This document shows, piece after piece, positions 22,216 through 43,671 of a DNA stretch of 43,776 bases. Positions within the stretch are counted from its first letter, which is position 1, and every line of letters begins with the position of its first letter. The position numbers and the translations under genes were made by a program. The notes under the pieces are model-generated. The model worked only from the letters and a program-made list of their open reading frames with translations. It did no database searches and had not been told where the DNA came from. Origin of the DNA: a virus; the IMG/VR virus record IMGVR_UViG_3300009104_000037, positions 1 to 43,776 of that record. One strand, written 5' to 3'.

Positions 22216-22223
22216 TATAAATA
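22216..22223 (+). promoter_or_regulatory. T4-type late promoter (TATAAATA) for portal gene
   Basis: An exact TATAAATA followed by C ends only seven bases before the ATG of gene 20. T4 late transcripts begin about six bases after this box, so the message should have almost no leader. No ribosome site is visible before the ATG. Confidence 0.8.
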
Positions 22224-27792: not shown

Positions 27793-27796
27793 GTGT

Positions 27797-27804: not shown

Positions 27805-27859
27805 TATTATAGGGAAGTCAAAGGGACAACCCATACACACAAACACACAGGAGGCCATC

Positions 27860-28072: not shown

Positions 28073-28085
28073 CTTTTCTCAAATG

Positions 28086-28109: not shown

Positions 28110-28111
28110 CT

Positions 28112-28119
28112 TATAAATA
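28112..28119 (+). promoter_or_regulatory. T4-type late promoter (TATAAATA) for iscU
   Basis: An exact TATAAATA followed by C starts just after the terminator tail and 36 bp before the iscU start, with a GGAGAG ribosome site between. The metabolic gene is therefore predicted to be expressed late. Confidence 0.85.
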
Positions 28120-28147
28120 CTAGTATGAGACTTAGGAGAGCATAAAG

Positions 28148-28564: not shown

Positions 28565-28565
28565 T

Positions 28566-28709: not shown

Positions 28710-29284
28710 CTACTAGAAATATAGATGTTGCAAATTGGGCTGGTACATTACCAGATAATTTGTCTTATTTGTCACCTACACAGTTTGAATTGGTTATTGC
28801 AAAACTACCAAACACAAAATATTTTGCTACAGGTGCAAACATACCATCTGTTACTGCAACTGCACTTAATCAACCTACTACATTAGGTATACAACCTAAA
28901 ATGCCAGGCGATAGGGTTGAGTTTGGTCAATTTACAGTCAACTTTATAGTAGATGAGAACTTAACTAACTGGAAAGAACTATATGATTGGATGGTTCAGA
29001 TAGCACCTGGCTATGATTCAAAGGATTATAGAACACTAATTGGTGCAGTTGATAGAACAGGACAACCATTCAATGATAGTGGCGATCCTAAGATGATGTA
29101 TTCCGATATGACAATGGTGGTTACTACTGCAGCTAATAACCCAAACCGATTTATTAGATATCACGATTGTTTTCCAATAGACCTTGCAGAAGTGACAATG
29201 GATACTACCACTACAGATAACCCTTATGTCACAGCAAGTGCATCCTTTGCCTTTACCTACTTTGAAATTGCAGAAACCTCTTAG
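28706..29284 (+). CDS. Tail tube-like structural protein (gp19/gp54-type fold)
   Basis: A 192-aa protein. LSPTQFELVIAKLPNTKYFA (residues 22-41), followed by ANIPS and then MPGDRVEFGQFTVNFIVDEN with a LTNWKELYDWM continuation, is the pattern of tube-fold proteins in T4-like phages, which includes gp19 and baseplate tube initiators such as gp54. It occupies the spot where marine T4-like phages carry a tail completion gene (often labelled gene 3) before uvsY. Exact identity between these is uncertain. The start overlaps the upstream short ORF by four bases. It is the end of the late unit that includes iscU. Confidence 0.65.
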   Translation: MTTRNIDVANWAGTLPDNLSYLSPTQFELVIAKLPNTKYFATGANIPSVTATALNQPTTLGIQPKMPGDRVEFGQFTVNFIVDENLTNWKELYDWMVQIAPGYDSKDYRTLIGAVDRTGQPFNDSGDPKMMYSDMTMVVTTAANNPNRFIRYHDCFPIDLAEVTMDTTTTDNPYVTASASFAFTYFEIAETS

Positions 29285-29292
29285 AAAATAAG

Positions 29293-29320
29293 TGGACAAA
29301 TACCACTTTTGTGGTATAAT
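29293..29320 (+). promoter_or_regulatory. Sigma-70 promoter giving leaderless uvsY mRNA
   Basis: TGGACA (29293-29298), a 16-bp spacer and a perfect TATAAT (29315-29320). The start of transcription expected seven bases after the box is the A of ATG 29327. A dyad ATACCAC-TTTT-GTGGTAT (29300-29317) fills the spacer and could be an operator. No ribosome site is present. Confidence 0.8.
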
Positions 29321-29326
29321 AATATT

Positions 29327-29773
29327 ATGAACTTAGAACAAATCCAAGCAGAATGGGCAAAAGATAGTGTCATAGAACAACTTGACATGGATAAAGCCTC
29401 TCTCGAAACTCCAAAACTACACTCAAAATACCTAGAATTACTTGCAGAAAAGAGACTTACATTCAAGAAGTATGAGGTTCAATATGCACAATTACTAAAG
29501 AAGAAGTGGTTGTGGTATACCGATAAGTTATCTAAAGACGAAATAGACGAACTGGGGTGGTCTTATGACCCTTTTGAAGGCCATAAAGTCCTTAAAACAG
29601 ACTATTCATACTACTTCAATGCAGATAAAGACCTAACAAACCTTAAATTAAAGATGGAATACCTTGATGAGTGTGTTTCTACTTTAAAAGACATACTAAA
29701 TATCATTACATGGAGACATCAATCTATTAAGAATGCAATTGACTGGTTGAAGTTTACTAACCCAGCAGGATAA
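29327..29773 (+). CDS. uvsY: Recombination mediator UvsY
   Basis: A 148-aa helical protein starting NLEQIQAEWAKDSVIEQLDM, with HSKYLELLAEKRLTFKKYEV and the C-terminal DILNIITWRHQSIKNAIDWL. This layout is that of UvsY (T4: 137 aa), which loads the UvsX recombinase onto gp32-coated single-stranded DNA. Its place directly before uvsW supports it. ATG 29327 is chosen over 29309 because the promoter -10 box at 29315-29320 lies between them and UvsY homologues begin with M(x)LE(D/Q)(L/I)Q. The transcript should begin exactly at this ATG. Confidence 0.9.
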   Translation: MNLEQIQAEWAKDSVIEQLDMDKASLETPKLHSKYLELLAEKRLTFKKYEVQYAQLLKKKWLWYTDKLSKDEIDELGWSYDPFEGHKVLKTDYSYYFNADKDLTNLKLKMEYLDECVSTLKDILNIITWRHQSIKNAIDWLKFTNPAG

Positions 29774-29776
29774 ATT

Positions 29777-30451
29777 ATGCCATCTTTTCTAAGAGACCCT
29801 CTTATAGTTACACAAGGAATAAGTCCAGAACTTTCTCAAGAAATATTAAATATTGGAAGACATATGGATACCAGTTACGCTGCAATTGGTGGAAGTCATG
29901 GTGTAGAAGATTATTCAACTAGAAAGTCTGGAGTATCGTGGTTACCAAAGGATATGACTGTTGCAGATGGAAAGACTAGACTTAATGAGGATTTAATACA
30001 ACCAATGGTGTATGATATTAACGATAAACACTTTGGTTTTGATCTAACCTACCACGAAAACAACCAGTTTACTACTTACAAAGCACCAGATGAACACTAC
30101 CAATGGCATTGTGATGGTGGCCCAGACACCTATCAACTAGAAAACTCTAAAGAAGATACCGAATTAATAACCCAAGTAGATGAACAGGTTAATACTTATA
30201 GGAAACTTTCATACATAATACAACTTTCTCATCCAGATGATTATGATGGTGGTCGTTTAGAGTGGATAGACCCTTGCAATAATCATTCAGAGAAAGATTG
30301 GGGATTGTTCATAGAAACAGTGCCACAGTCTGGAAAAGAACAAGGAACTCTCATAGTTTTTTCATCCATTCTTTATCACAGAGTAACTCCAGTGACTAGA
30401 GGTATCAGACATTCATTAGTAGGTTGGATATGCGGCCCACGATTCAAATAG
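29777..30451 (+). CDS. PKHD-type 2OG-Fe(II) hydroxylase
   Basis: A 224-aa protein with a complete 2OG-Fe(II) centre: H111-C-D113 in YQWHCDGGPD, LSYIIQLSHPDDYDGGRLEW, distal H201 in VFSSILYHRVTPV and R211 in RGIRHSLVGWICGPRF. The order and the DYDGGRLE turn match PKHD-type hydroxylases (PiuC-like), common in cyanophages and proteobacteria. Three bases separate it from uvsY, and it overlaps the uvsW start, so it is made with recombination proteins from the early-type promoter at 29293. The substrate is unknown. Confidence 0.88.
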   Translation: MPSFLRDPLIVTQGISPELSQEILNIGRHMDTSYAAIGGSHGVEDYSTRKSGVSWLPKDMTVADGKTRLNEDLIQPMVYDINDKHFGFDLTYHENNQFTTYKAPDEHYQWHCDGGPDTYQLENSKEDTELITQVDEQVNTYRKLSYIIQLSHPDDYDGGRLEWIDPCNNHSEKDWGLFIETVPQSGKEQGTLIVFSSILYHRVTPVTRGIRHSLVGWICGPRFK

Positions 30452-31857
30452 AAAAAATAGATGAGACTTATATAAGAGTCACATCAGAACCATCAGTTCA
30501 ACAAGAATTAACAGATTACTTTACCTTCCCAGTGCCAGGCGCAAAGTTTATGCCATCGGTTCGCAATAAATATTGGGATGGTAACATAAGGTTGTATTCT
30601 TATTCAGATGGTAAACTATACACAGGATTGTATTATGCAATCCAACAATTTGCACAAGACAGGGAGTATAACATTGAAGGATACAAATGGGAAACAGATG
30701 TCGAAGAAGAAACATTCGTTAAGAACTTACAGTTACCATTCGAGGTTCGAGATTATCAAAAGGAGGCTATTAGTCGCGCGATCACGACTAGACGATCTCT
30801 CTTGGTTTCACCTACTGCTAGTGGTAAGTCTCTTATTATATATGCTGTTGCACGGCATTTTCTAAAAATCCACAAGAAACGAGTATTAATTATCGTACCT
30901 ACTACATCCTTAGTAGAACAAATGGCAACAGATTTTGAAGAATATGGATATAATAAACCCATAGATAAGATGTATGGTGGTAATAAGATAGGTGATACTG
31001 ACATAGTAGTTACTACATGGCAAACCTTATCTAGAATGCCCAAGTCGTTTTATGACCATTTTGGAGCAGTATTTGGTGATGAAGCACACTTATTTAAAGC
31101 AAAAGTTCTCACAGGGATATTAACTAAAATGAAGAATATCTCTCATAGATGGGGAACTACAGGAACATTAGATGATTCACAAACGCACAAATTGGTTCTG
31201 GAAGGTCTGTTTGGCCCTACTCATTTTGTTACTAGCAGTGCCGACCTCATAGAAGAAGGTACTCTTGCAGACTTAGATATTCAATGTTTAGTCCTAAAGT
31301 ACCCTAAAGAAGTATCTAAAATAGTATCTCAAATGGATTATCCAAGAGAAATGGAGTTTTTAGTTGATAATGACAAAAGAAATCGTTTTATTCGTAATTT
31401 AGTACAAGATAGGGGTGGTAATACCCTTATCCTGTTCCAATATGTAGAAAAACATGGAAAGAAGCTTCATAGTGATTTCTTACAACTGGGTGGTAGTTTG
31501 TTCTTCATATATGGTAAAACAGATGCACTTGCACGAGAAGAGGCCCGAAGGCTTTTGGAGAAGTCTAATGATGCAACAATCATTGCTTCTTATGGAACTT
31601 TCTCCACTGGAATCAATATGGAAAACCTAGATAATATAGTATTTGCAAGTCCATCTAAGTCAAAGATACGAATATTACAGTCTATAGGAAGGGTACTAAG
31701 GAAAGGTAGAACTGGGAAAGCAACAGTATATGATATTGCAGATGATCTTTCTTTTGGCAAAAAACAGAATTATACCCTAAAACACTTCAAAGAAAGAATA
31801 AATACTTATAATAAGGAAAGATTTTCCTATAATATCCACGATATAAAATTCAAATGA
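30430..31857 (+). CDS. uvsW: Recombination helicase UvsW
   Basis: A 475-aa superfamily 2 helicase. An N-terminal DNA-binding domain (YFTFPVPGAKFMPSVRNKYW followed by DGNIRLY) precedes PTASGKS (residues 128-134, motif I), FGDEAHLF (motif II), TTGTLDDS (motif III), STGINMENLDNIVFASPS and QSIGRVLRKGR (motif VI). UvsW remodels branched DNA and R-loops and ends origin-dependent replication in T4. I chose ATG 30430, six bases after an AGG; an in-frame TTG lies at 30424. It overlaps the upstream hydroxylase by 22 nt and the next gene by four. Confidence 0.95.
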   Translation: MRPTIQIEKIDETYIRVTSEPSVQQELTDYFTFPVPGAKFMPSVRNKYWDGNIRLYSYSDGKLYTGLYYAIQQFAQDREYNIEGYKWETDVEEETFVKNLQLPFEVRDYQKEAISRAITTRRSLLVSPTASGKSLIIYAVARHFLKIHKKRVLIIVPTTSLVEQMATDFEEYGYNKPIDKMYGGNKIGDTDIVVTTWQTLSRMPKSFYDHFGAVFGDEAHLFKAKVLTGILTKMKNISHRWGTTGTLDDSQTHKLVLEGLFGPTHFVTSSADLIEEGTLADLDIQCLVLKYPKEVSKIVSQMDYPREMEFLVDNDKRNRFIRNLVQDRGGNTLILFQYVEKHGKKLHSDFLQLGGSLFFIYGKTDALAREEARRLLEKSNDATIIASYGTFSTGINMENLDNIVFASPSKSKIRILQSIGRVLRKGRTGKATVYDIADDLSFGKKQNYTLKHFKERINTYNKERFSYNIHDIKFK

Positions 31858-32339
31858 ACTACAAATATTTAAGACTTAGAACAGGGGAACATGTAATTTC
31901 CATTATAGAGGGAGTTGCAGAAGGTCAAGTCAATCTGGTCATGCCTATGATCGCAGACTTAATACCATCTATGTTGGGTCATGGAACAGTAATGAAATTA
32001 TCACCTCTAGTCCCTTATACACAGGATAGTAAAATAACGATTAATGCAGCTGACATAACTTATTCTGCCGAAATAACAGAACAGTTTCAGAAGTTTTACG
32101 ATAAGGGAGTTACAGATTGGATAAAGATGAGAGATGAATTGGGTGTAGAAATAAGAACACCAAAACAAGAAATAGAACATGGACAAGAAATACGAAATCT
32201 TATCCAACATCATGCTAGAAGATTTTTTGACGAAGAACACATAAGTTTTCCAGATGATATGACCGAAGAAGAAGTTGAGAGAGAATTTGCAGATTGGATT
32301 GCAAATCAAGGTGATGAACCTAAAGGGACTATACACTAA
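31854..32339 (+). CDS. Conserved hypothetical between uvsW and gene 55
   Basis: A 161-aa protein. The N-terminal 75 residues (YKYLRLRTGEHVISIIEGVA...LVMPMIADLIP...KLSPLVPYTQDSKITINAAD) form short strands suggestive of an Sm-like small barrel, seen in hypothetical proteins at this site in marine T4-like phages. The C-terminal half is charged and helical (MTEEEVEREFADWIANQG). No catalytic motif is visible. ATGA overlap with uvsW suggests coupled expression. The Sm-like reading is a pattern guess. Confidence 0.6.
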   Translation: MNYKYLRLRTGEHVISIIEGVAEGQVNLVMPMIADLIPSMLGHGTVMKLSPLVPYTQDSKITINAADITYSAEITEQFQKFYDKGVTDWIKMRDELGVEIRTPKQEIEHGQEIRNLIQHHARRFFDEEHISFPDDMTEEEVEREFADWIANQGDEPKGTIH

Positions 32340-32392
32340 TAATAGGTATATCTATCCCTTTCCAAAGGTACATTAATATTTTATCACCGAAA

Positions 32393-32416
32393 CCTTAAGC
32401 TGTCAAGGCTTTTTTT
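32393..32416 (+). terminator. Weak terminator-like hairpin before gene 55
   Basis: CCTT and AAGG pair over an 8-nt loop and are followed by C and a run of seven T. The stem is short, so termination efficiency is doubtful, but the T-run sits just ahead of the gene 55 promoter. The rest of the 114-bp gap holds a CCTTT/AAAGG repeat and no reading frame. Confidence 0.45.
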
Positions 32417-32419
32417 CTC

Positions 32420-32447
32420 TTGACAGAACTACATTATGGAGTATAAT
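32420..32447 (+). promoter_or_regulatory. Consensus sigma-70 promoter giving leaderless gene 55 mRNA
   Basis: A perfect TTGACA (32420-32425), a 16-bp spacer and a perfect TATAAT (32442-32447). The expected start of transcription is the A of ATG 32454. There is no ribosome site. TACAT begins 12 bases before the -10 box, as in the promoters at 39803 and 42422. Confidence 0.9.
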
Positions 32448-32453
32448 AGATAG

Positions 32454-33005
32454 ATGGTACAAAAAAAGAAACCAGAGCATTATGTAAACAATAAAGAGTT
32501 TACAGCAGCGATAACAGAACATAACATTGCAGTTAAACAAGCAATCAAAGATGGAGTGGAACCACCTAGAGTTTCAGAGTACATTGGAGAATGTATCTAC
32601 AAGATTGCAACAAGACTTTCAACTAAACCTAATTTCATTAACTATTCTTATAGAGATGAAATGATATGTGATGGAATTGAGAATTGTTTACAATATATAA
32701 ACAACTTTAATCCAGAAAAATCTAAGAATGCATTTGCCTACATAACCCAAATTATATACTATGCATTTTTAAGACGAATTCAAAAAGAGAAAAAGCAATC
32801 GGCCATAAAACAAAAGGCGATAATGAATTCTGGTATCCTAACTGATATGGTAGATACTATTGATGGGGATACTACTCAGTATAGTAATACATATGTTGAG
32901 TTTTTACAAGACAATATGAATGAAGTAAACTATAAACCCAGAGGAAAGAAGAAAACTGCACCAAAAAGCAAAGGTGTTGAAAACTTTTACCAGTCCACAA
33001 AGTAA
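32454..33005 (+). CDS. gp55: Late sigma factor gp55
   Basis: A 183-aa protein. KPEHYVNNKEFTAAITEHNI, then ISTR-like KIATRLSTKPNFINYSYRDE followed by MICDGIENCLQYINNFNP and NAFAYITQIIYYAFLRRIQK is the sigma-2-like core of gp55, which lets host RNA polymerase read TATAAATA promoters together with gp33 and the gp45 clamp. T4 gp55 has 185 aa. Many exact TATAAATA sites in this window are its expected targets. It is driven by a perfect host-type promoter and starts without a leader. It overlaps gene 47 by one base. Confidence 0.94.
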   Translation: MVQKKKPEHYVNNKEFTAAITEHNIAVKQAIKDGVEPPRVSEYIGECIYKIATRLSTKPNFINYSYRDEMICDGIENCLQYINNFNPEKSKNAFAYITQIIYYAFLRRIQKEKKQSAIKQKAIMNSGILTDMVDTIDGDTTQYSNTYVEFLQDNMNEVNYKPRGKKKTAPKSKGVENFYQSTK

Positions 33006-34066
33006 TGAAGATTGCTATCCTAAACGACACACATTGTGGTGTTCGTAACGATAATGTGCAATTCCACGAGTTGCAGAGGAAGTTCTATGAGGAACTTTTC
33101 TTTCCATATCTATTAGAACACAATATTAAACACATCCTTCATCTTGGAGATTATTTCGACAAGAGAACAGGTATTAACTTCTTATCACTTCAAAGAAACA
33201 AAGAACACTTTGTAGATCATCTTAGTGAGCATGATATAACTATGGATTTAGTATTAGGTAATCATGATCTATATTATAAGAATACATCCGAAGTAAATTC
33301 ACCAACTGCATTGTTAAACCATCCAAACATAAAAATCTTCGGCGATGTTGTCACCAAAGATTATGATGGATGTAAACTTTGTTTAGTGCCTTGGATTCAT
33401 AGAGGGAACATTGATGATACAGTAGAACATCTAGATACAACCAATGCATCAGTTGCTATGGGACATTTAGAAATCGAAGGTGCAATGATGATGCCCGGCT
33501 ATTATTCAACACATGGATTGAGTCTGGATACATTTAAAAGATTTGATAAAGTGTATAGTGGTCATTTCCACATTAAATCAGAAATGAATAACTTAATCTA
33601 TTTGGGTTCTCAAATGGAATTTACATGGTCTGATTATGGAGACCCAAAACACTTTCATATATTTGATACTGAAACACGAGAAATGAAACCAGTATTAAAT
33701 CCAATTAGAATGTTTGAAAAAGTATTCTATGATGATTCCAAAGAAACAATGGAATCTATACAAGCAAAAGATTTCTCATATTTAAAGGATATGTTTGTCA
33801 AGATAATTGTTATCAATAAAGATCAACCTTATTGGTTTGATATGTTTGTTGATAAAATTTCAAAGGCAGATGTAGTTGACTTTAAGGTAGTAGAAGATCA
33901 TGGAAATCTTGATATGATGGATGATGAAGATGCATTATCAGATGCAGAAGATACTTTGACTATATTAACTAAACACATAGAGGCTATGGAAATCTCTGGT
34001 GATAAAACAAAACTCGACAACCTAATGAGGTCTTTATATACTGAAGCATTAGATGTGAGTTTTTAA
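33005..34066 (+). CDS. gp47: Recombination nuclease subunit gp47 (SbcD/Mre11-like)
   Basis: A 353-aa metallophosphoesterase. LNDTHCGVR (D8, H10), LHLGDYFDKR (D49), VLGNHDLYY, MGHLEIEG and YSGHFHIK provide the five phosphoesterase motifs that bind two metal ions. With gp46 it resects DNA ends for recombination-dependent replication. The length matches T4 gp47 (339 aa). The C-terminal acidic part (DMMDDEDALSDAEDT) is ordinary for the family. Its start overlaps the gp55 stop (TAATG). Confidence 0.94.
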   Translation: MKIAILNDTHCGVRNDNVQFHELQRKFYEELFFPYLLEHNIKHILHLGDYFDKRTGINFLSLQRNKEHFVDHLSEHDITMDLVLGNHDLYYKNTSEVNSPTALLNHPNIKIFGDVVTKDYDGCKLCLVPWIHRGNIDDTVEHLDTTNASVAMGHLEIEGAMMMPGYYSTHGLSLDTFKRFDKVYSGHFHIKSEMNNLIYLGSQMEFTWSDYGDPKHFHIFDTETREMKPVLNPIRMFEKVFYDDSKETMESIQAKDFSYLKDMFVKIIVINKDQPYWFDMFVDKISKADVVDFKVVEDHGNLDMMDDEDALSDAEDTLTILTKHIEAMEISGDKTKLDNLMRSLYTEALDVSF

Positions 34067-34309
34067 ATGGAAAGATTAATGGTAAGTAATCAAAATGGAA
34101 TTATATACAGTGGACAGTATGTGATGGAAGGTCACTATGTTTCATTTCGTATATTAGATAATGAAGAAGTAGAGATAAGTGAAGTTATGGATTTACCCAG
34201 ATATCAGTCAAAAGGTAGAACCTTTTCAACTGAAAAAAAGGTAACTCTTGATGAAGCAATTGAAATACAAGATAGATATATTAGTTTAGGATATGATAAG
34301 ATTTCATAG
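34067..34309 (+). CDS. Small hypothetical between genes 47 and 46
   Basis: An 80-aa protein beginning immediately after the gene 47 stop; ATG 34079 is a possible shorter start. The sequence is strand-rich (GIIYSGQYVMEGHYVSFRIL) with a final helix (TLDEAIEIQDRYISLGYDKI). No motif is recognised. It overlaps gene 46 by 17 nt. A small gene at this place occurs in marine T4-like phages; function unknown. Confidence 0.65.
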   Translation: MERLMVSNQNGIIYSGQYVMEGHYVSFRILDNEEVEISEVMDLPRYQSKGRTFSTEKKVTLDEAIEIQDRYISLGYDKIS

Positions 34310-36002
34310 TGTAAAGTACAAAAACTTTTTATCCACAGGCAACCACTTTACAGAAATCTTCCTTGATAAAAGGAAGGCCTGTTTAGTTATAGGTGAAAAT
34401 GGTAGTGGTAAATCAACAATGTTAGATGCATTGTGCTTTGGTTTATTTGGTAAGGGGTTCAGAAAAGTACCTAAAACCATGTTAGTTAATTCTATCAATG
34501 GTAGACATATGGTAGTTGAGGTTGAATTCTCAGTGGGTCAGAAGAGATATAAGATAGTTCGTGGTGCAAAACCAAACATCTTTGAGGTATATTTACATAA
34601 CAAAATGTTAAATCAAGATGCAAATATGAGAGATTATCAAGATCATCTTGAAAAACAAATTCTAAAAATGAACTACAAGGCCTTTACACAGGTTGTTATT
34701 CTAGGTAGTTCAACATTCGTACCTTTTATGCAAATGAATACATCAGATAGAAGGGGTATTATAGAAGATATCCTTGATATTAACATATTTTCTATTATGA
34801 ATGATATCTTAAAAGTTAGAATGGGTGCATTAAAATCTGAATTACATGATCTAGAATATGACATCAGATTATCCGAAGATCGCATTGATACCTACAAGAA
34901 ACACATTAAAGCTTTGGGCGACGGTCGCCGAGACAAGATTCAAGACTTCCGATCAAGTATCGAAAATGCAGAGAAAAACAACAAGAAACTACAAGAAGAG
35001 TGTACTTTATTGCTTGAACAAGTAGATACTAAACAGGGTGAAATCGACCACATAGATGACATAAAACACAAACTACAACATACATTAGACATAGAGAAGA
35101 AGTTAGAAGATGCTAAAACAAGGGGAAATAAGGAAATAAACTTCTATGAGACCACTGATGAGTGTCCAACATGTCATCATAACCTAGAAGATACCTTCAA
35201 GTTAAAGAAAATAAACACAACTAAAGGAACTTTAGAGGAAATAACATCAGCATTATCTGACTTAGACGAACAGGTAAAAGAAATCAACAAGGAACTTGAG
35301 GAAATAAGAGAAGTTCAAGGTAAAATAGACGAACTTACACGAGATATCAATAAGAAACAGACAGAAATGAATGCATCTGCTCAATACATTACTAAGATAC
35401 AGAAAGAAATTGATAAGTTGATGGGAGAAAAATCATCAGATGACACCAAAAAGTTAGATAAAGAGATTAAAACCTTAAAGAAACATGAGAGTGGAAAAGA
35501 GAGTTTAGTTGATAAGAGACATTATTACGATCTTGCAGCCTTCTTATTGAAGGACTCTGGGATCAAAACCAAGATAGTTAAACAGTATTTACCAGTAATG
35601 AATAAACTGATTAACAAGTATCTTGCATCTATGGAGTTCTTTGTTCAATTTGAATTGGATGAAAACTTTAATGAGAACATAAAGTCTAGATATAGAGATG
35701 AATTCTCTTATGCAAACTTTAGTGAAGGAGAGAAAATGAGAATTGACCTTGCATTGTTGTTCACTTGGAGAGCAGTTGCAAAGTTAAAAAATAGTGTGAA
35801 TACAAACCTATTGATGTTAGATGAAGTCTTTGACAGTTCACTGGATGAGGGTGGTACTGACGAGTTCATGAAGATACTAACAACACTAGGAAACGATACC
35901 AATGTCTTTATTATTTCACACAAAGGGGATGTCTTAAATGATAAGTTTAGACATGTTATGAAATTTGAAAAGGTTAAAAACTTTAGTAGGGTAGCAGAAT
36001 GA
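34293..36002 (+). CDS. gp46: Recombination nuclease ATPase subunit gp46 (SbcC/Rad50-like)
   Basis: A 569-aa SMC-like ATPase. FHSVKYKNFLSTGNHFTEI is the typical start; Walker A GENGSGKS is at 34-41; long coiled coils flank a zinc hook CPTC (C291-C294); the ABC signature NFSEGEKMRIDLALL and Walker B LLMLDEVFDSSLD follow near the C-terminus. It works with gp47 as the phage Mre11-Rad50. The length is close to T4 gp46 (560 aa). Its stop overlaps the next ATG (ATGA). Confidence 0.95.
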   Translation: MIRFHSVKYKNFLSTGNHFTEIFLDKRKACLVIGENGSGKSTMLDALCFGLFGKGFRKVPKTMLVNSINGRHMVVEVEFSVGQKRYKIVRGAKPNIFEVYLHNKMLNQDANMRDYQDHLEKQILKMNYKAFTQVVILGSSTFVPFMQMNTSDRRGIIEDILDINIFSIMNDILKVRMGALKSELHDLEYDIRLSEDRIDTYKKHIKALGDGRRDKIQDFRSSIENAEKNNKKLQEECTLLLEQVDTKQGEIDHIDDIKHKLQHTLDIEKKLEDAKTRGNKEINFYETTDECPTCHHNLEDTFKLKKINTTKGTLEEITSALSDLDEQVKEINKELEEIREVQGKIDELTRDINKKQTEMNASAQYITKIQKEIDKLMGEKSSDDTKKLDKEIKTLKKHESGKESLVDKRHYYDLAAFLLKDSGIKTKIVKQYLPVMNKLINKYLASMEFFVQFELDENFNENIKSRYRDEFSYANFSEGEKMRIDLALLFTWRAVAKLKNSVNTNLLMLDEVFDSSLDEGGTDEFMKILTTLGNDTNVFIISHKGDVLNDKFRHVMKFEKVKNFSRVAE

Positions 36003-36940
36003 TAATACTAAACAGTCATTGTAGAACAGGATTGTATAAAGCATGGCAGATGATTATACACAACTTAATACAAAGGGAAGACAACTGGATTAAGTTTCAA
36101 GAAGATGCAAGTGGAGATACATCATTTGATACAAACCACTGGCAAAGATATCATGATCTAACATTTGAAAAGATAAGTGGTGTTATGACTGGAGAAAATT
36201 TTATGGATGTAGATGAGCCATTTAATACTTTCTTCCATAACATCACTAATCCCATTGAGCCATTTGTAGGAATTGCATTAGATGTACAGGGAATAAAACC
36301 AAATCCATTTCATGGCGATCCAGCAAAGATACTAAAAGAGTTAAATAATATCCCTAATGAATTACATGAACTGCCACCCTTTGGAGTGTTTGGTGCATTT
36401 AATGAATGGAATAACATTGACTGGAGAAGAATGAAAGAAAGAGGGTATAAGATTGTAAACTTACATAGAAGAGACATGAAGTCTTGGTTTATATCCACTA
36501 GTCTTTGTGTTGCATTAGGAATTAATGGTTGGCATTGTTGGACAGATGAACAAGCAAAAACACTCTATAATAGAAGAAAGAAACTTGTTGGAAAGTTAAA
36601 AGTAAACTCTACTCAGTTGAAGTTGTTCTTCATTTCAGTAGAAAGATATTTAGAATCAGTTCCAGCAGATGCATTTTGTATCTATGAAGCACTCTACTCT
36701 AATCCAGAAATCTTTATAAAGGAATGTGAACTTGATCCGAACCTACCTATGATAGAGAACTATATATCTAAGAGAGCAAAACATCCAGTAAAAGATTATG
36801 AGGATTACCTAGAAATTAGTTCTGATGAGTTTTCTGAAATGTGGGAAAAGACTATTCCTTTCTCTTTTAAAGAAAGATTTAAAATAGACATTCAAGAAAT
36901 GCCTGAGTTTGTAAACGAAGATGGAACCGAAAAGAATTGA
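35999..36940 (+). CDS. Possible sulfotransferase-like protein
   Basis: A 313-aa protein. It starts MIILNSHCRTGLYKAWQMII, which could be a degenerate phosphosulfate-binding loop after a first strand. In the middle YKIVNLHRRDMKSWFISTSL followed by GINGWHCWTD resembles the 3'-phosphate region (LRR(R/D)...S...) of marine sulfotransferase-like proteins. The usual P-x-S-G-T/S loop is not present, so the call is weak. It overlaps gp46 by four bases and the next 2OG oxygenase by 20, placing it in the same transcript. Other reading: an unrelated host-modifying enzyme. Confidence 0.4.
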   Translation: MIILNSHCRTGLYKAWQMIIHNLIQREDNWIKFQEDASGDTSFDTNHWQRYHDLTFEKISGVMTGENFMDVDEPFNTFFHNITNPIEPFVGIALDVQGIKPNPFHGDPAKILKELNNIPNELHELPPFGVFGAFNEWNNIDWRRMKERGYKIVNLHRRDMKSWFISTSLCVALGINGWHCWTDEQAKTLYNRRKKLVGKLKVNSTQLKLFFISVERYLESVPADAFCIYEALYSNPEIFIKECELDPNLPMIENYISKRAKHPVKDYEDYLEISSDEFSEMWEKTIPFSFKERFKIDIQEMPEFVNEDGTEKN

Positions 36941-37544
36941 TTTTTTAGACCCAGATGGTATTCTCTTATATGAGAATGTTGTTTCTAATAAAAAATTAGA
37001 TGATTGGTATTGGAGAATAAAAAGCTATGCACAGTTCAGACAACAATCAACTGCATCTAGAGGATCAAATGAAAAACAAGCATATGCTTGGCAGGCAAAC
37101 TTCAATTCTCCAGAGATTATTGAAAAGATTAATAATGATCCAGAGATAAATTCCAAAATATCTGATGTAGATAGACAACTACCAGAAGGGTTTGAACTTA
37201 TGGAAGAGATATGGGATCATATATCTTCAAAATGTAAATTGAATTATGAACCCATACAACAGTATATCAATGCATTTAATCATGGGGATAATACTTGGGG
37301 TCATACAGATTGGTATGATTACACAGTTATCTTATATCCAAATCCTAAATGGGACTCTCAAATATGGGGCGGTGAGACACTATTCTTCGATCCTAACTAT
37401 AAATTTATAAGAGCTGCAGTAGCATGTACGCCAGGCAATGTTGTAGTATTTAAAGGAGATATACCACATAAGGCAGGACAAGTATCAAGAGAAACAACAG
37501 AATCAAGATTGTCAGTAGTATATCAAGTTAAAGGTGAAGTATGA
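36921..37544 (+). CDS. 2OG-Fe(II) oxygenase
   Basis: A 207-aa protein with a complete set of ligands: H128-T-D130 in NTWGHTDWYDYTVILYPNP, the turn WGGETLFFD, distal H183 in VVVFKGDIPHKAG and R196 in ESRLSVVYQVKG. This is the minimal double-stranded beta-helix of phage 2OG oxygenases related to prolyl hydroxylases. ATG 36921 lies 20 nt inside the preceding gene; its stop overlaps the deformylase start (ATGA). Its position next to a deformylase and another oxygenase suggests a protein-modifying group, but the substrate is unknown. Confidence 0.85.
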   Translation: MEPKRIDFLDPDGILLYENVVSNKKLDDWYWRIKSYAQFRQQSTASRGSNEKQAYAWQANFNSPEIIEKINNDPEINSKISDVDRQLPEGFELMEEIWDHISSKCKLNYEPIQQYINAFNHGDNTWGHTDWYDYTVILYPNPKWDSQIWGGETLFFDPNYKFIRAAVACTPGNVVVFKGDIPHKAGQVSRETTESRLSVVYQVKGEV

Positions 37545-38161
37545 AATTAATAGCAAAAGATAACACAACTTTAAGATCAGTTGCAAAGATGTGGGATTAT
37601 GAAAACCCACCAGAAGATTTAATAGAACTTAGAGATAAGTTAATCAATACTATGATGGATGAAGGTGGTATTGGACTAGCAGCCCCACAAGTAGGCGTAC
37701 CTTATAGAGTATTTGTTATGAGAGGGGAAGGTGCAGAAGAAAGTATGTTAATGGTTAATCCAGAGATTGTAGACCACTCTGTTGAAACTGCAGCCATAGA
37801 AGAAGGATGTCTTACAGGTGGGTTAGAAGGAATATTTTGTATCCTAACCAGACCAGAGTCTATTCGTGCAAGATGGCAGAATGAAGATGGTGATGTTAGA
37901 GAATTAAGTTTTGGTGGTATGTCTGGAAGATGTTTCCAACATGAATTAGATCATTTAAATGGTGTCCTTTTTATAGATCATGCAAGTCAAATAAAATTAG
38001 AGAGAGCAGTTAAGAAAAAGAATAAAAGGAAAAAGAAATATGACAGATTCGTCAAACAGCTTAAAGAGTATACCGCAACCAGAGGTGCATTACCTACACC
38101 AAGTGTTGACTCCGAAGGAGTGCAACCTACTGATAAAGTATCACAAAGCGAATCAGAATAA
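37541..38161 (+). CDS. def: Peptide deformylase with overprinted C-terminal extension
   Basis: A 206-aa metalloenzyme that removes the formyl group from new proteins. All three motifs are present: GIGLAAPQVG (43-52), EEGCL (87-91, Cys90, with T instead of the usual S next) and QHELDHLNG (133-141, with His134, Glu135 and His138). Deformylase genes are common in marine phages. The catalytic domain ends near residue 165. The last 40 residues, basic and then Ser/Pro-rich, are encoded where the next gene begins in another frame (122-nt overlap), so this tail probably arose by overprinting or by loss of an earlier stop. Confidence 0.95.
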   Translation: MKLIAKDNTTLRSVAKMWDYENPPEDLIELRDKLINTMMDEGGIGLAAPQVGVPYRVFVMRGEGAEESMLMVNPEIVDHSVETAAIEEGCLTGGLEGIFCILTRPESIRARWQNEDGDVRELSFGGMSGRCFQHELDHLNGVLFIDHASQIKLERAVKKKNKRKKKYDRFVKQLKEYTATRGALPTPSVDSEGVQPTDKVSQSESE

Positions 38162-38741
38162 AATTACATATGACGATCCTGCCGATCAGTATAATGGTAG
38201 GCGTATACCATTAGCAAGTATAAATAATTTAAACATCAAAAGGATTATTGCAAAATATCAATATGATGTCATTTCTGAAATCTGGTCTTTATATAAAGAA
38301 AAATGTTATCCAGAACAAACAGAAATAATGAGATGGCCAATAGGTGTCCCACAGGAGATACATATTGATGTCATGGGAAGTGAAGAAGACAATGCAATTA
38401 TCCCATTTACAGATTTTGCATCTATTCTTTACTTAAATGATAACTTTGAAGATGGCACAACTTACTTTGAAGGTGGTATGGAAATCCAGCCAGTTCAAGG
38501 TATGGTTGCCATTTTTGAAGGAATGAAATACTGGCATGGGGTAAAGGCATGTAAAGGGAATGACCGATACACTTTACCCATTTGGTTCACAACAGAATGG
38601 AAGAACATGGAACTTCAATCACATGGTGGTGAAGAAAGAGAAGGATTAAATGCTGGAACCTTGCCAAACATGGGAAGTGAAGAAGACAACTATACAGCAC
38701 TTCGTGACTGGTGGAGAAATAGATACTGGCCCGACTTGTAG
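38040..38741 (+). CDS. 2OG-Fe(II) oxygenase (prolyl 4-hydroxylase-like)
   Basis: A 233-aa protein. VHYLHQVLTPKECNLLIKYH (16-35) is the typical P4H-type lead-in, and the iron site is H108-I-D110 in PQEIHIDVMG with distal H166 in KYWHGVKAC; R176 (NDRYTLPIWF) would bind 2-oxoglutarate. FASILYLNDNFEDGTTYFEG matches the central strands. ATG 38040 is supported because the overlapped N-terminus looks like genuine P4H sequence. It overlaps the deformylase by 122 nt. Its target is unknown. Confidence 0.88.
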   Translation: MTDSSNSLKSIPQPEVHYLHQVLTPKECNLLIKYHKANQNKITYDDPADQYNGRRIPLASINNLNIKRIIAKYQYDVISEIWSLYKEKCYPEQTEIMRWPIGVPQEIHIDVMGSEEDNAIIPFTDFASILYLNDNFEDGTTYFEGGMEIQPVQGMVAIFEGMKYWHGVKACKGNDRYTLPIWFTTEWKNMELQSHGGEEREGLNAGTLPNMGSEEDNYTALRDWWRNRYWPDL

Positions 38742-38749
38742 GAGATAAT

Positions 38750-38968
38750 ATGAAAGACGAACAAACTAATTGTTATGAAGAATTATTCGAAAAGGTTTTA
38801 GAACTTCAAGGGAAGTATCCTTCCCTAATGATAGCAGGAAATATGGCAGTACAAGCTTTAAGGATTTATAGAAGTGTTCTTAATGATGAAGAATTTAAAA
38901 GTATGATGGTTGCTATTGTTAAAAGTGAAGACCAAATCAAACCTTTTGATAGACCAACATTACAATAG
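38750..38968 (+). CDS. Conserved hypothetical, helical
   Basis: A 72-aa protein with a clear GGAG ribosome site six bases before ATG 38750. It is all helix by composition: ELFEKVLELQGKYPSLMIAG, NMAVQALRIYRSVLNDEEFK. Short proteins of this type recur in marine T4-like phages near accessory genes; no function is known. Eight bases separate it from the small membrane ORF at 38977. Confidence 0.65.
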   Translation: MKDEQTNCYEELFEKVLELQGKYPSLMIAGNMAVQALRIYRSVLNDEEFKSMMVAIVKSEDQIKPFDRPTLQ

Positions 38969-38976
38969 GAGAAAAA

Positions 38977-39096
38977 ATGGATATATGGTTAATTTTAGAA
39001 TTACCTTTTTTAATATTTAAGTGGTCTCTAATCATTGGATTTTGGTATATGATTATATACCTTGCTTATGATTGGATTAAAAACTTCTGGAATTGA
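38977..39096 (+). CDS. 39-aa single-pass membrane peptide
   Basis: ATG 38977, six bases after AGGAG, opens 39 codons: MDIWLILELPFLIFKWSLII followed by GFWYMIIYLAYDWIKNFWN. The whole peptide is hydrophobic with many aromatics, enough for one or two short membrane passes. It ends one base before the Coq4-like start, so the two are likely co-translated. Its function is unknown; it could anchor or regulate its membrane-linked neighbour. Confidence 0.6.
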   Translation: MDIWLILELPFLIFKWSLIIGFWYMIIYLAYDWIKNFWN

Positions 39097-39097
39097 A

Positions 39098-39784
39098 ATG
39101 GCTAAGAAAAAGATAAGATTACTTAAAGGTATTAAAGCTTTTCAAAGTGTATTAAAATCTAAGAGTAATACTCAAGGATTTGCAGATATCAATTCTGCAC
39201 TTAATGGAGATTCAGTTGATCCCATCATCAATGAATGGGGAAAAACATCTATGGCAAAAAAATATCTCAATGGTGAAAGATTACCATTAAATGATACATT
39301 TTCTAAGAATTCTGTTGGAGATGTAAGACAAAAATTTCTAGGAAAATATGCCAAGTCGAGTGATCTTAGAGATTTAAACAGAGCAGCACCTAAGAATTTA
39401 CAGATTGCATTCTTTCATTGGGTTATAGATTGTCATGATATATCACATATAATAACAGATTATGGTCAAGATACTACTGGTGAAATACTCAGAATTGAGT
39501 ATGAAATATTCCAATCTTATATGAGAGGGTACTGGTTTATCTCATTAGGTTTTCAAATAAGAACACTCTTTCTCAGTCCAATCAAATTCTTTAAATTCAG
39601 AAAAATGGTAAAAGAGGCCAGAAACAGGGCCTCAGAGGCCACCAATCTTCATCTAATTGATTGGTTTGAATATCTGGATGAACCCTATACCTTTGTAAAA
39701 GAACGCATTGTAGGGGTAAAACCTACCACATTATATCAGAATAAAGACCCATATTGGTATAATTGGTCTGAAAAACACTTCTAA
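39098..39784 (+). CDS. Coq4-family ubiquinone biosynthesis-like protein
   Basis: A 228-aa protein. It contains the defining Coq4 metal motif H-D-x2-H-x11-E exactly: H113-D114-I-S-H117, eleven residues, then E129 (WVIDCHDISHIITDYGQDTT then GE). The following helix (IFQSYMRGYWFISLGFQIRT) corresponds to the hydrophobic, isoprenoid-contacting part of Coq4. In eukaryotes Coq4 is needed for a late coenzyme Q ring step and binds metal and polyprenyl tails; a Nostoc homologue is also known. ATG 39098 is chosen because it is one base after the upstream stop and the earlier 39062 start lies inside the membrane peptide gene. The basic N-terminus (AKKKIRLLKGIK) has no signal peptide. Confidence 0.8.
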   Translation: MAKKKIRLLKGIKAFQSVLKSKSNTQGFADINSALNGDSVDPIINEWGKTSMAKKYLNGERLPLNDTFSKNSVGDVRQKFLGKYAKSSDLRDLNRAAPKNLQIAFFHWVIDCHDISHIITDYGQDTTGEILRIEYEIFQSYMRGYWFISLGFQIRTLFLSPIKFFKFRKMVKEARNRASEATNLHLIDWFEYLDEPYTFVKERIVGVKPTTLYQNKDPYWYNWSEKHF

Positions 39785-39802
39785 ATCAATCTCTTATAGC
39801 CC

Positions 39803-39832
39803 TTTACACAGGGGTACATTTTTTAGTATAAT
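39803..39832 (+). promoter_or_regulatory. Sigma-70 promoter giving near-leaderless VWA mRNA
   Basis: TTTACA (39803-39808), an 18-bp spacer and a perfect TATAAT (39827-39832). The expected start is two bases before ATG 39841. The stretch ACACAGGGGTACAT (39806-39819) is identical to that in the promoter at 42422 and may bind a regulator. No ribosome site is present. Confidence 0.8.
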
Positions 39833-39840
39833 GTATACAG

Positions 39841-42234
39841 ATGAGAGAAATTACTACAACAAGAACTTCTAAAGACTCCCTTGCAAGACTTCTTGCACAG
39901 GAAGATTTAGTCATTGAGCATAGGAAAGTTCCTACTGCATACTTTGAACTAAAAAAACGAAAACTCGTTTGTCCAATCCTTAAAGATGATATGTCTGCTG
40001 ACCTTTATGATTTATTCATGGGTCACGAAGTAGGACATGCATTGAATACGCCAGAAGATGGATGGCATACTGCGGTATGTGAAAAAGGAATGAAATATAA
40101 AGGATATCTCAATGTCCTAGAAGATATAAGAATTGAGAAAGCAATCAAAAACAAGTATGCTGGTTTGAGAAGGTCTTTTTATGATGCATACAAAGAATTA
40201 TACAATGATATAGACTTCTTTGGAGTTAAAACCAAAGATGTAAATAAACTTGCATTTATTGATAGGATCAATCTTTACTTTAAAGTTGGTCATACCATGA
40301 TGGTTGATTTTTCTAAAGAAGAGTTAAAAATCATTGAAGCCTTACACAGAATGGATACTTGGGAAAAAGTTGTCAAAATGGCAGATTACCTTTATGAGTT
40401 ATCCAAGTTTGAAGAAGTTGAACCTCAAGAAGACCCAAATCAAAAAATGGTTCCTCAGATTAATGATGAGGATGGTATGGAAATGCCTGAAGGTGATGAA
40501 GAGTATTCTGTTCCTCAATCGTCTGGTGATGAAAAAGAAGAGAATGAAACTACTGGAACTGGTGAAGAAAAATCTGATGAAGATGGTGAAGAAGGTTCTG
40601 GTGAAGAAGGTGAAGAAGGTGATGATGACTCTGAATCAAATTCTGGTGAAAAAGGTGAAGAAGGTAAAGAAAAAGAACAAGAATCTTCTAAAGAATTTGG
40701 TGATGGTGCTGGTAGTGAAGAAGACAATGCAAATGAGTCAATAACTGACAAAGCATCAAGAGAAAAAGAAAAAGATTTTCTTCATGATGATCTTGATAAC
40801 AAATGGGGTGGAGATAATTCTTATCTTGACTTAAACACCAAACAAATTAAATGGGAAGATCACAAAGTTGGTTACAAAACTATTCTTGAAGAAATGAAAG
40901 AAGGTTGGGCAAAACAAGAAGAAAATGGTTACAAAAAACAAGAATGGAACAATGATACAGACTCTTGGGAGTATATAGACTTTGGTGACACTGATGATGC
41001 CGAGAGATACACAAACGAATTTATAGATCACAATCAAAAAATTGTGAATTACATGGCAAAAGAATTTGACATGAGAAAAGCTGCATCAAACTACAAGAAG
41101 GCAATGACTGCCAAGTCTGGTGAGATTGATATGCAGAAGATTTATCAATACTTGATTAAAGATGATATCTTTAAGAAGGTTACTGTTGTTCCAGATGGTA
41201 AAAATCATGGTATGATCTTACTATTAGACTGGTCTGGATCAATGCATGATTGCATTAAAGAGACTTTTGAACAGTGTGCAATTCTAGTGATGTTTTGCAG
41301 AAGAGTTGGAATTCCTCACAGAGTTTATGCATTTTCAGATGCATATGGAAAATCTGATGTTTCTGAGGAAGACAGAAAAGAGTATTATGAAATCCAAAAA
41401 GGTAAAACAGAAAGAAATGAAGTTACCATTGGAAGAACTGCAATGTTGGAACTCTTTTCAGACAAAATGAATAACAAAGATTTCAAAGAAATGTTGACAA
41501 CTATGATGATCCAAGTTGACTCAATGACATATTATAATCACAACCAAGAGGCTCCATTTAGAAATCCTTATAACCAAGTTTACAGATTTAACTTAGGTGG
41601 TACTCCACTGGATGAAAGTTTACTAATCATAAGAGATTACATACAAGAATTTAAAAATAACTACAACATAGACAAACTTCAATTTGTTACTTTGACTGAT
41701 GGTGACTCCTTCCATGCTCGTGGATTGACTTACAACAATGGTAGAGAATATTTCTTCCACGATAAAAAAGTTAAAAAGACTTATGAGTACAACACTGAAA
41801 GATACTACAGTAGATATTCTGAGAAAGCAAAAGGTGGTTCTACTGATTGTCTCTTGAAGTGGATAGAAGATACTACTGGAGTTGATACTGTTGGGTTCTT
41901 TATTTGCAAACAATCTTATAGAGAGTTTGACAAGTATTCAGAGAAGTTTTCAAAATTAGATATAGATTACAGTGACCAGTGGGACAAAAACAAAGAAGAT
42001 TTTAAACTCTTTAGAAAAGAAGGTGGTATCAAACTTGAATGTGGTGAAGCTTCTGGATACAAAGAGTTCTACATGTTAAACAAGAAAAAGATGTCAATTG
42101 TAGTTGAAGATGACACTTTGAATGTAGAAGAAGGTGCATCAAAACAAAAATTGAAAGGTGCAATGATGAGAATGGGAAAAAACAAAATGTCCCAGAGAAA
42201 AATACTTCAACACTTCATTAAGAAGGTTGCATAA
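39841..42234 (+). CDS. HEXXH metallopeptidase-VWA fusion protein (CobT-like)
   Basis: A 797-aa protein. Near the N-terminus FMGHEVGHALNTPEDGWH carries the zinc motif H62-E-V-G-H66, followed by LNVLEDIRIEKAI, which may supply a third ligand. Residues about 190-300 are a Glu/Asp/Lys/Ser-rich linker. The C-terminal half is a von Willebrand A domain with MIDAS D463-W-S465-G-S467 and a later TLTDGDS. It has the CobT-like order (linker then VWA) seen beside AAA+ genes. It probably works with the CobS/MoxR-like ATPase at 42499; the pair would remodel or cleave a protein target. Direct cobalamin synthesis is less likely since no CobN is present. Confidence 0.8.
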   Translation: MREITTTRTSKDSLARLLAQEDLVIEHRKVPTAYFELKKRKLVCPILKDDMSADLYDLFMGHEVGHALNTPEDGWHTAVCEKGMKYKGYLNVLEDIRIEKAIKNKYAGLRRSFYDAYKELYNDIDFFGVKTKDVNKLAFIDRINLYFKVGHTMMVDFSKEELKIIEALHRMDTWEKVVKMADYLYELSKFEEVEPQEDPNQKMVPQINDEDGMEMPEGDEEYSVPQSSGDEKEENETTGTGEEKSDEDGEEGSGEEGEEGDDDSESNSGEKGEEGKEKEQESSKEFGDGAGSEEDNANESITDKASREKEKDFLHDDLDNKWGGDNSYLDLNTKQIKWEDHKVGYKTILEEMKEGWAKQEENGYKKQEWNNDTDSWEYIDFGDTDDAERYTNEFIDHNQKIVNYMAKEFDMRKAASNYKKAMTAKSGEIDMQKIYQYLIKDDIFKKVTVVPDGKNHGMILLLDWSGSMHDCIKETFEQCAILVMFCRRVGIPHRVYAFSDAYGKSDVSEEDRKEYYEIQKGKTERNEVTIGRTAMLELFSDKMNNKDFKEMLTTMMIQVDSMTYYNHNQEAPFRNPYNQVYRFNLGGTPLDESLLIIRDYIQEFKNNYNIDKLQFVTLTDGDSFHARGLTYNNGREYFFHDKKVKKTYEYNTERYYSRYSEKAKGGSTDCLLKWIEDTTGVDTVGFFICKQSYREFDKYSEKFSKLDIDYSDQWDKNKEDFKLFRKEGGIKLECGEASGYKEFYMLNKKKMSIVVEDDTLNVEEGASKQKLKGAMMRMGKNKMSQRKILQHFIKKVA

Positions 42235-42425
42235 TGAAGATTTTTGAATTAATAGAACAGAAAGCAATGTTTAATTGGGATATAACAGTGGTATGTTTAT
42301 TCCTACTTGCTGGGGTGTTTGTCAAGGACAAATCCACCAGATTAGGACTATGGGTAGGTGGAATGATCTACTTATTCTTTGCAGTTTTATGGCATATGCC
42401 AATAGATTGGAGCAATCTCTATTGA
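42234..42425 (+). CDS. Small membrane protein between VWA and AAA+ genes
   Basis: A 63-aa protein whose ATG overlaps the stop of the VWA gene (TAATG). Two hydrophobic segments (about residues 15-31, WDITVVCLFLLAGVFV, and 36-53, LGLWVGGMIYLFFAVLWH) are joined by a short polar loop KDKSTR. No family is recognised. Its stop overlaps the first bases of the promoter of the cobS-like gene. It may link the VWA/AAA+ pair to the membrane. Confidence 0.6.
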   Translation: MKIFELIEQKAMFNWDITVVCLFLLAGVFVKDKSTRLGLWVGGMIYLFFAVLWHMPIDWSNLY

Positions 42426-42451
42426 CACAGGGGTACATAAAAAAGTATAAT
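42422..42451 (+). promoter_or_regulatory. Consensus sigma-70 promoter before the cobS-like gene
   Basis: A perfect TTGACA (42422-42427), an 18-bp spacer and a perfect TATAAT (42446-42451). The expected start is A42458, the first base of an ATG. It shares ACACAGGGGTACAT with the promoter at 39803. Confidence 0.9.
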
Positions 42452-42457
42452 AGACTT

Positions 42458-42502
42458 ATGAATGAGAAAACAACAAATTTAATATTAGGAGAGAATGCAT
42501 GA
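42458..42502 (+). CDS. 14-codon leaderless upstream ORF coupled to cobS-like gene
   Basis: The predicted transcript starts exactly at ATG 42458, which opens MNEKTTNLILGENA and stops at TGA 42500-42502, overlapping the next ATG (42499) as ATGA. The AGGAGAG ribosome site of the cobS-like gene lies inside this frame. It may be a leader peptide that couples or gates translation. Whether it is translated is inference. Confidence 0.5.
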   Translation: MNEKTTNLILGENA

Positions 42503-43671
42503 ATTTAAATGCTAATCATTACAGGTTTCTAGATGCGTGTGCAGAACAGATGCCTGGCACAATTGAGTTCTCTAAATCGACAGTAAGGAAAATCTGTGAT
42601 ACAGCAGAAATACCTTTTCCTTCTTGGTTGATTAGAAAACCTCAATTCAAAGCTGGATATGGTACTTACTCGATTGAGTCCCTAGTTCCAGAAAATTATG
42701 GTGCTGTTGCGGTTGAACCAGAGGCAGTTCCGAATGTTCAAGTGGTTCCAATTCCAACATCTGATGTTGGGATCAATGTTCTAGATGAGAACTTTGAAGT
42801 TATTCCAACTAAGATTGATAACTATGTTCCTTTTGGACATTTCAAAGACTTAGAAAAAATTATAAAATCTGGGATTTTCTTTCCAGTGTTTATAACTGGT
42901 CTTTCTGGAAATGGAAAAACTTTGATGGTTGAGCAATTATGTGCAAAACTTAAAAAAGAATTATTTAGAGTAAACATCACGATTGAGACTGATGAAGATG
43001 ATTTGATTGGTTCCAACACTTTGGTGAATGGAAACATCATGTTTAGGGAAGGCCCTGTCCTCAAAGCAATGAGGAAAGGTGCTGTTCTTCTTCTTGATGA
43101 AGTTGACCTTGCATCAAATAAAGTGATGTGTCTTCAATCAATCCTTGAAGGTGGTGGTTACTTAATCAAAAAAACTGGTGAGTTTGTTAAACCAGCAGAT
43201 GGTTTCACAATCTGTGCTACTGCAAACACTAAAGGTAAAGGTTCTGAGGATGGAAGGTTCATAGGAACTAACATTCTTAATGAAGCATTCCTTGAAAGGT
43301 TTGCAATCACTTTGGAACAAAGTTACCCACCAGTGAAAACTGAACAAAAAATCATCAAAAAGGATTTTGAATTGGTTGGTGTCAATGATGATGAGTTTGC
43401 AGAAAACTTAGTCAACTGGGCTGATGTAATCAGAAAATCCTTCTACGAAGGTGCAGTTGATGAAGTGATTTCAACTAGAAGGTTGGTTCACATTGCAAAG
43501 GCATTCTCAATGTTCAATGACAAAATCAAAAGTATTGAAGTTTGTCTTGCAAGATTTGATGATGACACCAAAGCAAGTTTCCTTGATCTCTACACCAAAG
43601 TTGATGCTGGGGTCTTAGGAACAGAAGAGGAACAAAAAGATGGTGAGGAAAACTCAGACATCCCAATCTAA
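42499..43671 (+). CDS. cobS: CobS/MoxR-like AAA+ ATPase
   Basis: A 390-aa ATPase. The N-terminal 110 residues are a variable domain with a winged-helix-like start. Then come Walker A GLSGNGKT (134-141), IETDEDDLIGSNTLVNGNIM, Walker B VLLLDEVD (196-203), a sensor CATANTKGKG, and LERFAITLEQSYPPVKTEQ. This is the CobS/MoxR branch of AAA+ proteins, widely annotated as cobS in marine T4-like phages. MoxR-type ATPases act with VWA partners, and such a partner is encoded just upstream. Its ribosome site AGGAGAG lies seven bases before the ATG, inside the 14-codon upstream frame. Confidence 0.9.
   Translation: MNLNANHYRFLDACAEQMPGTIEFSKSTVRKICDTAEIPFPSWLIRKPQFKAGYGTYSIESLVPENYGAVAVEPEAVPNVQVVPIPTSDVGINVLDENFEVIPTKIDNYVPFGHFKDLEKIIKSGIFFPVFITGLSGNGKTLMVEQLCAKLKKELFRVNITIETDEDDLIGSNTLVNGNIMFREGPVLKAMRKGAVLLLDEVDLASNKVMCLQSILEGGGYLIKKTGEFVKPADGFTICATANTKGKGSEDGRFIGTNILNEAFLERFAITLEQSYPPVKTEQKIIKKDFELVGVNDDEFAENLVNWADVIRKSFYEGAVDEVISTRRLVHIAKAFSMFNDKIKSIEVCLARFDDDTKASFLDLYTKVDAGVLGTEEEQKDGEENSDIPI

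Follow-up and report, generated by a model that had tools for sequence, protein, structure and literature searches.

Predicted leaderless initiation at sigma-70 and late promoters in a clade of marine T4-like phages

In a clade of marine T4-like phages, many start codons lie at the predicted transcription start of host sigma-70 promoters and of gp55-type late promoters alike. This points to systematic, clade-wide leaderless initiation at both promoter types, with coupling to downstream genes through mini-open reading frames (mini-ORFs), a reading to which a probability of about 0.85 is given. Judged from the arrangement of promoters and start codons, leaderless transcription and translation are strongly supported, and from the same arrangement we infer RNA 5' ends at the AUG, 70S initiation and the timing of expression. 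The point of departure was a stretch of 43.8 kb from an uncultured marine T4-like phage (an IMG/VR record), the whole of which is called the window here. An earlier note on this DNA had drawn attention to sigma-70 promoters placed directly before four start codons; its observation is confirmed, was understated, and extends beyond the window.

The window phage and its relatives

The named genomes nearest to the window phage are those of Methylophilales phage Melnitz and the Pelagibacter phages HTVC008M and Mosig, which have the gene order around uvsY-uvsW-gp55-gp47/46 in common with the window. Motifs of psbA, psbD and hli were not found in the window clade, so a cyanobacterial host is without support from marker genes, and a cyanophage identity was rejected.

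S21 is encoded by some relatives. An assignment of the host through phage S21 was also rejected, as it led only to a phage-like contig that had been placed in a Synechococcus MAG and is unusable as host evidence. On this contig (L315, NYUU01000001.1, from the MAG of 'Synechococcus sp. CPC35'), which is probably phage DNA assigned to a bacterial MAG by binning, the S21 gene is 81% identical to that of a 146-kb relative of the window phage. A peptide deformylase gene (phrog_2890) is found at 37541-38161 of the window and in all relatives searched. Phage S21, peptide deformylase or the host ribosomes could bias translation towards leaderless messages; a role of S21 or peptide deformylase in leaderless translation is speculation.

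Sigma-70 promoters at start codons in the window

By standard numbering, the -10 element occupies -12 to -7 (PMC2988021), so that a spacing of 6 nt between this element and an ATG (d=6) puts the A of the ATG at +1. The four TATAAT boxes of the earlier note are indeed present at 29315, 32442, 39827 and 42446. They belong to four of the five top sigma-70 matches in the part of the window that was scanned (24000-43776), two with 12 and two with 11 of the 12 consensus positions. As also claimed, the predicted start coincides with the A of the ATG in three cases and lies two bases earlier in that of the VWA gene, and no ribosome site precedes any of the four ATGs. The names given to the genes served (uvsY, gp55, a VWA protein and a cobS-like gene) hold by their matches to phrog_231, phrog_234, phrog_459 and phrog_249. 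All four promoters and their genes lie on the plus strand.

The uvsY promoter (29293..29320) consists of TGGACA, a 16-bp spacer and TATAAT (29315-29320), with an extended -10 (TGG-TATAAT), followed after 6 nt by ATG29327. The gene itself (29327..29773, phrog_231, E 3e-35) has a predicted leaderless start with no Shine-Dalgarno (SD) site, and its homologues align from residue 1. A dyad, ATACCAC-TTTT-GTGGTAT (29300-29317), fills the spacer between -35 and -10; varied yet recognisable in about 50 relatives, it is a possible operator for a phage regulator of promoters of this type (class B, see below).

The promoter of the gp55-like late sigma factor gene (32420..32447) matches the consensus at 12/12 positions, with TTGACA, a 16-bp spacer, TATAAT (32442-32447) and, 6 nt on, ATG32454, the predicted leaderless start of the gene (32454..33005, phrog_234, E 2e-59). 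An inverted repeat, CTGTCAAG...CTTGACAG, flanks its -35 (32378-32426), and the minus strand of the same stretch carries TTGACA, a 17-bp spacer and TAAAAT, then an ATG after 4 nt that opens a 14-codon frame (MYLWKGIDIPIISV), possibly a divergent or antisense promoter. TGTCAAG is also present 5' of gp55 in many distant relatives.

The other two promoters have an 18-bp spacer with a CAGGGGTACAT motif, an element that is not enriched in the window when taken alone. The first (39803..39832), with TTTACA and TATAAT (39827-39832), stands 8 nt before ATG39841 of a VWA/CobT-like peptidase gene (39841..42234, phrog_459, E 4e-178), giving a predicted leader of 0-2 nt; most orthologues have the ATG at 6 nt. 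A tRNA gene lies directly 5' of this promoter in many relatives (e.g., L108, 9900-9977) and is absent from the window. The second (42422..42451, 12/12 consensus), with TTGACA and TATAAT (42446-42451), is followed after 6 nt by ATG42458. This ATG opens a 14-codon mini-ORF at the predicted +1 (42458..42502), the stop of which (TGA42502) overlaps the ATG42499 of the cobS-like AAA+ ATPase gene (42499..43671, phrog_249, E 9e-120) as ATGA. The cobS ribosome site, AGGAGAG (42487..42493, plus strand), lies within the mini-ORF.

With at most one mismatch allowed, the bare pattern TATAAT-N6-ATG shows no enrichment in the window, where it occurs 30 times against 29.5 expected from shuffled sequence. The case can thus not rest on this pattern, and the idea was tested on relatives; the signal emerges only when the -35 and the gene context are taken into account.

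Spacing in orthologues and in whole genomes

The spacing is conserved among distinct orthologues. TATAAT-N6-ATG precedes uvsY in 24/24 (at least 70% identity), while d=6 is found in 32/35 for gp55 (at least 70% identity) and in 22/24 for the VWA gene (50-70% identity). The six nucleotides between the -10 and the ATG vary in sequence and hardly at all in length. In a tree of gp55 proteins, the window falls in a clade of 35 rows (SH-aLRT 99), 31 of which are leaderless by this measure, and the leaderless label changes 10 times on the tree versus 28.7 times when shuffled. In more distant relatives, Melnitz, Mosig, HTVC008M and Syn9 among them, gp55 has a leader and an SD-like site.

A census was then made of strong sigma-70 promoters (at least 10/12) and their distance d to the start of called genes, gene starts being simple ORF calls and the window clade being represented by six records. 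In this clade, 27 promoters are found at d=6, versus 0.77 per position at d=9-60. A stricter count, restricted to intergenic sigma-70 promoters scoring at least 10.5, places the ATG at exactly 6 nt in 33 of 61 cases, over a background of about 1.4 per position, with a further 10 of the 61 at d=7-8. The choice of transcription start can shift by 1-2 nt, and at d=7-8 leaders of 1-2 nt are likely. A sister clade has 11 of its 33 strong intergenic sigma-70 promoters at d=6, versus 0.97 per position. As orthologue counts are not phylogenetically independent, the safest count is that of distinct genes in a single genome: in the 146-kb relative (G010), the starts of 11 different genes lie at d=6 (binomial P 4e-12), including those of DNA polymerase gp43, primase gp61, gp55, uvsY, VWA and DUF3310. 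The scan of relatives that the earlier note had proposed as a check is, therefore, positive, with a d=6 spike far beyond chance in the wider clade.

The spike is absent from the controls T4, Syn9, P-SSM2, the single-cell virus AG-345-L05 and phage C48C1, and Melnitz has one strong promoter at d=6. Consensus early promoters are scarce in T4, for which the late class is therefore the better control. An SD is absent at all listed starts with d of 8 or less; in these phages, 38-49% of genes have an SD, and many are without a clear one. A pyrimidine stands directly 5' of the ATG, as a transcription initiator would require, at 27/33 and 21/24 leaderless starts (Fisher P 1.5e-4 and 8e-5, respectively) versus about 48% of SD starts.

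Late promoters

The late promoter box of T4 spans -13 to -6, so that a spacing of 5 nt between such a box, TATAAATA, and an ATG again corresponds to +1. PMC2988020 describes the position of this box only as 'about one helical turn'. An ATG spike at exactly 5 nt is found in the window clade (9/56 intergenic sites), the sister clade (12/52 intergenic sites) and the SAR11 phages HTVC008M and Mosig (7/34 sites), with about one per position expected in each case, compared with 1/25 intergenic sites in T4 and 0/27 in cyanophages. An ATG lies 4-8 nt from a quarter to a third of the boxes in the clade versus 0/22 in T4. In HTVC008M, five late starts at this 5-nt spacing match deposited gene starts (CsgF, gp2, gp25, an oxygenase and a wedge protein); the positions of these late genes are 6280, 7562, 18916 (minus strand), 31132 and 49760. 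A gp3/gp19-like tail gene, which together with the portal gene makes the clearest case, has TATAAATA-N5-ATG in 20/20 distinct orthologues (50-70% identity).

Within the window, a plus-strand box at 22216..22223 lies 7 nt before the ATG of the portal protein gene (22231..23772, plus strand, phrog_213, E 5e-200), which has no SD and is predicted to be late and leaderless; in portal orthologues, the distance is 5-8 nt. The earlier note's account of structural genes, with TATAAATA and ribosome sites, thus stands for several late genes and fails for the portal gene. Another plus-strand box (28112..28119) has an ATG exactly 5 nt on (28125). It opens a 6-codon mini-ORF, MRLRRA (28125..28145, plus strand), at the predicted late-promoter +1, with a stop 2 nt before an SD-led NifU-like gene (phrog_8429, start 28148).

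Like T4, these phages have the late box and encode a gp55-type sigma factor; the T4-style leader with an SD at late promoters was not found to be the rule in the clade. That two promoter types of different geometry both appear to place the AUG at +1 is the strongest single argument for leaderless initiation.

Two classes of sigma-70 promoters

The intergenic sigma-70 promoters of the clade divide sharply into two classes. The spacer of class A is 18 bp long and contains GGTRC, a motif tied to this length in 24/24 cases; the class includes the promoters of VWA and cobS. Class B, with those of uvsY, gp55, gp43, gp61 and DUF3310, has a 16-bp spacer resembling AATACCAGTTTTGTGG. Leaderless members make up 16/24 of class A and 26/33 of the 16-bp-spacer class, the others (8/24 and 7/33) being leadered, and SD-led members occur in both classes. 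Since both classes mix the two kinds of start, leaderlessness is not the regulatory class marker, for which spacer type is a better candidate. T4-type MotA middle promoters were considered and rejected: a MotA box (TGCTTtA, 12 +/- 1 bp upstream of the -10) was looked for, no TGCTT occurs in the listed spacers, and a TTGACA-like -35 is kept.

Mini-ORFs coupled to downstream genes

Of some 20 non-identical loci of the window clade, all except one have a class A promoter at d=6 from the mini-ORF before cobS. The length of this mini-ORF varies across relatives (29, 33, 35, 36, 39, 41 and 47 nt). In every case, it is either joined to cobS in the same frame or closed by an ATGA overlap with the cobS start; it never enters the third frame and never stops early. 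This constraint on frame argues that the 5' AUG is translated and that ribosomes are handed on; on this ground, the 14-codon frame of the window looks translated. The same arrangement of an AUG at the predicted +1 and a separate SD-led start downstream is found at other genes, and a leaderless mini-ORF with an ATGA end precedes other SD-led genes as well.

Alternative explanations

The reading favoured by the earlier note, in which leaderless translation marks an early or middle class and late structural genes use SD sites, fits the four best cases of the window (uvsY, gp55, VWA and cobS), several late genes with an SD, and the mostly replication-type leaderless sigma-70 genes of the relatives (gp43, gp61, uvsY, gp55 and DUF3310). 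It is nevertheless unlikely, as the TATAAATA promoters have their own +1 ATG spike, portal and tail genes included, and leadered genes occur under both sigma-70 classes (8/24 and 7/33). The late spike and the mixed sigma-70 classes rather argue that leaderlessness would be a mode of translation laid over all promoter classes.

Still a little less probable is that the +1 ATG reflects an initiator preference (YATG) with no translational role, proteins being made from other starts or from SD-free leadered messages. Many genes are in fact without a clear SD, and a pyrimidine at -1 is what an initiator should have; however, the +1 ATG begins conserved proteins that align with their homologues from the first residue and have no other start with an SD, the frames of the mini-ORFs are kept, and T4 and cyanophage promoters lack the +1 ATG pattern. 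Chance, in the sense that AT-rich DNA gives TATAAT and ATG at many spacings, would account for the shuffled rate of the bare pattern (one mismatch) in the window, but it is hardly credible in view of a spacing histogram with sharp peaks at 6 nt (sigma-70) and 5 nt (late) in independent genes and genomes, and with no peak in the T4 and P-SSM2 controls of the same G+C.

Proposed mechanism

Under the preferred reading of systematic leaderless initiation, the start codon would have been moved to the transcription start in this clade of marine T4-like phages. The ATG would lie 6 nt downstream of the -10 in host sigma-70 promoters, where this element ends at -7, and 5 nt downstream of the box of gp55-type late promoters (TATAAATA, -13 to -6), so that the mRNA 5' end would be the AUG in both. 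Ribosomes would bind this 5'-terminal AUG directly (70S or leaderless initiation) with no SD. Several further messages would open with a leaderless mini-ORF, joined to the main gene by in-frame fusion or by an ATGA overlap beside a normal ribosome site, and the ribosomes loaded at the 5' AUG would be passed to that gene. The temporal class is probably set by the promoter (A, 18-bp with GGGTAC; B, 16-bp; late, TATAAATA) and not by leaderlessness, and genes may also be read from upstream promoters. It is somewhat probable that this lineage exchanged much SD-led initiation for leaderless initiation at sigma-70 and late promoters, with mini-ORFs as a ribosome-loading device.

Comparison with known systems

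Leaderless mRNAs are usually seen as a phage rarity (lambda cI) or as a trait of Actinobacteria, Deinococcus and archaea, and a start-site map has reportedly been made for cyanophage Syn9. In Deinococcus-Thermus and Actinobacteria, leaderless mRNAs have a -10 adjoining the ORF (PMC12340547, PMC3160421, PMC4633059). As predicted for the clade, the -10 there sets the start codon as the transcription start, without SD, at many genes and in a spacing-dependent manner; there, the arrangement belongs to cellular organisms, whose promoters often have TANNNT and scarcely any -35, whereas the clade consists of phages with full TTGACA/TATAAT promoters plus T4-type late promoters. The leaderless phage mRNA of lambda cI, as cited in PMC4965119 and PMC9031893, also begins at the AUG and is translated without an SD, as is predicted for the clade, but is a single mRNA of a temperate phage and not a genome-wide arrangement in T4-like phages. 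The nearest precedent for cobS is that of E. coli ptrB and rcnR, in which a 5'-terminal AUG with a short uORF precedes an SD-led main gene and the uAUG can raise downstream expression (PMC4965119); in the phages, the uORF is fused in frame to, or overlaps by ATGA, the main gene throughout the clade.

T4, the early, middle and late promoters of which are described (PMC2988021, PMC2988020), has in common with the clade the TATAAT -10, the TATAAATA late box and middle-type genes (gp43, uvsY, gp55 and gp61). Its genes have leaders with an SD, whereas the clade has no MotA box, keeps a TTGACA -35 and has fixed 16-/18-bp spacer motifs. Some late TATAAATA-N5-ATG genes are found in Melnitz, HTVC008M and Mosig, with a larger number in the SAR11 phages; gp55 is leadered in all three, as is uvsY of Melnitz. 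Early and late promoters are predicted in the Melnitz paper, the text of which contains no discussion of leaderless mRNAs; the AR9 paper mentions briefly that transcripts of phages often lack a leader. In a search of open-access papers, no account was found of leaderless mRNAs as a systematic feature of T4-like marine phages. Leaderless mRNA is already known; what appears to be new is its systematic use in a T4-like lineage, with coupled mini-ORFs and at promoters of both the sigma-70 and the late type.

Implications

For the annotation of marine phages, the analysis yields a practical model of start codons and promoters, and it defines two classes of sigma-70 promoters in phages that are said to have no middle promoters. 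The proposal is testable in cultured SAR11 phages, with five annotated HTVC008M starts lying 5 nt after TATAAATA. If it is true, a whole virus can run key functions, namely DNA polymerase, the late sigma factor, recombination, portal and tail genes, without Shine-Dalgarno initiation.
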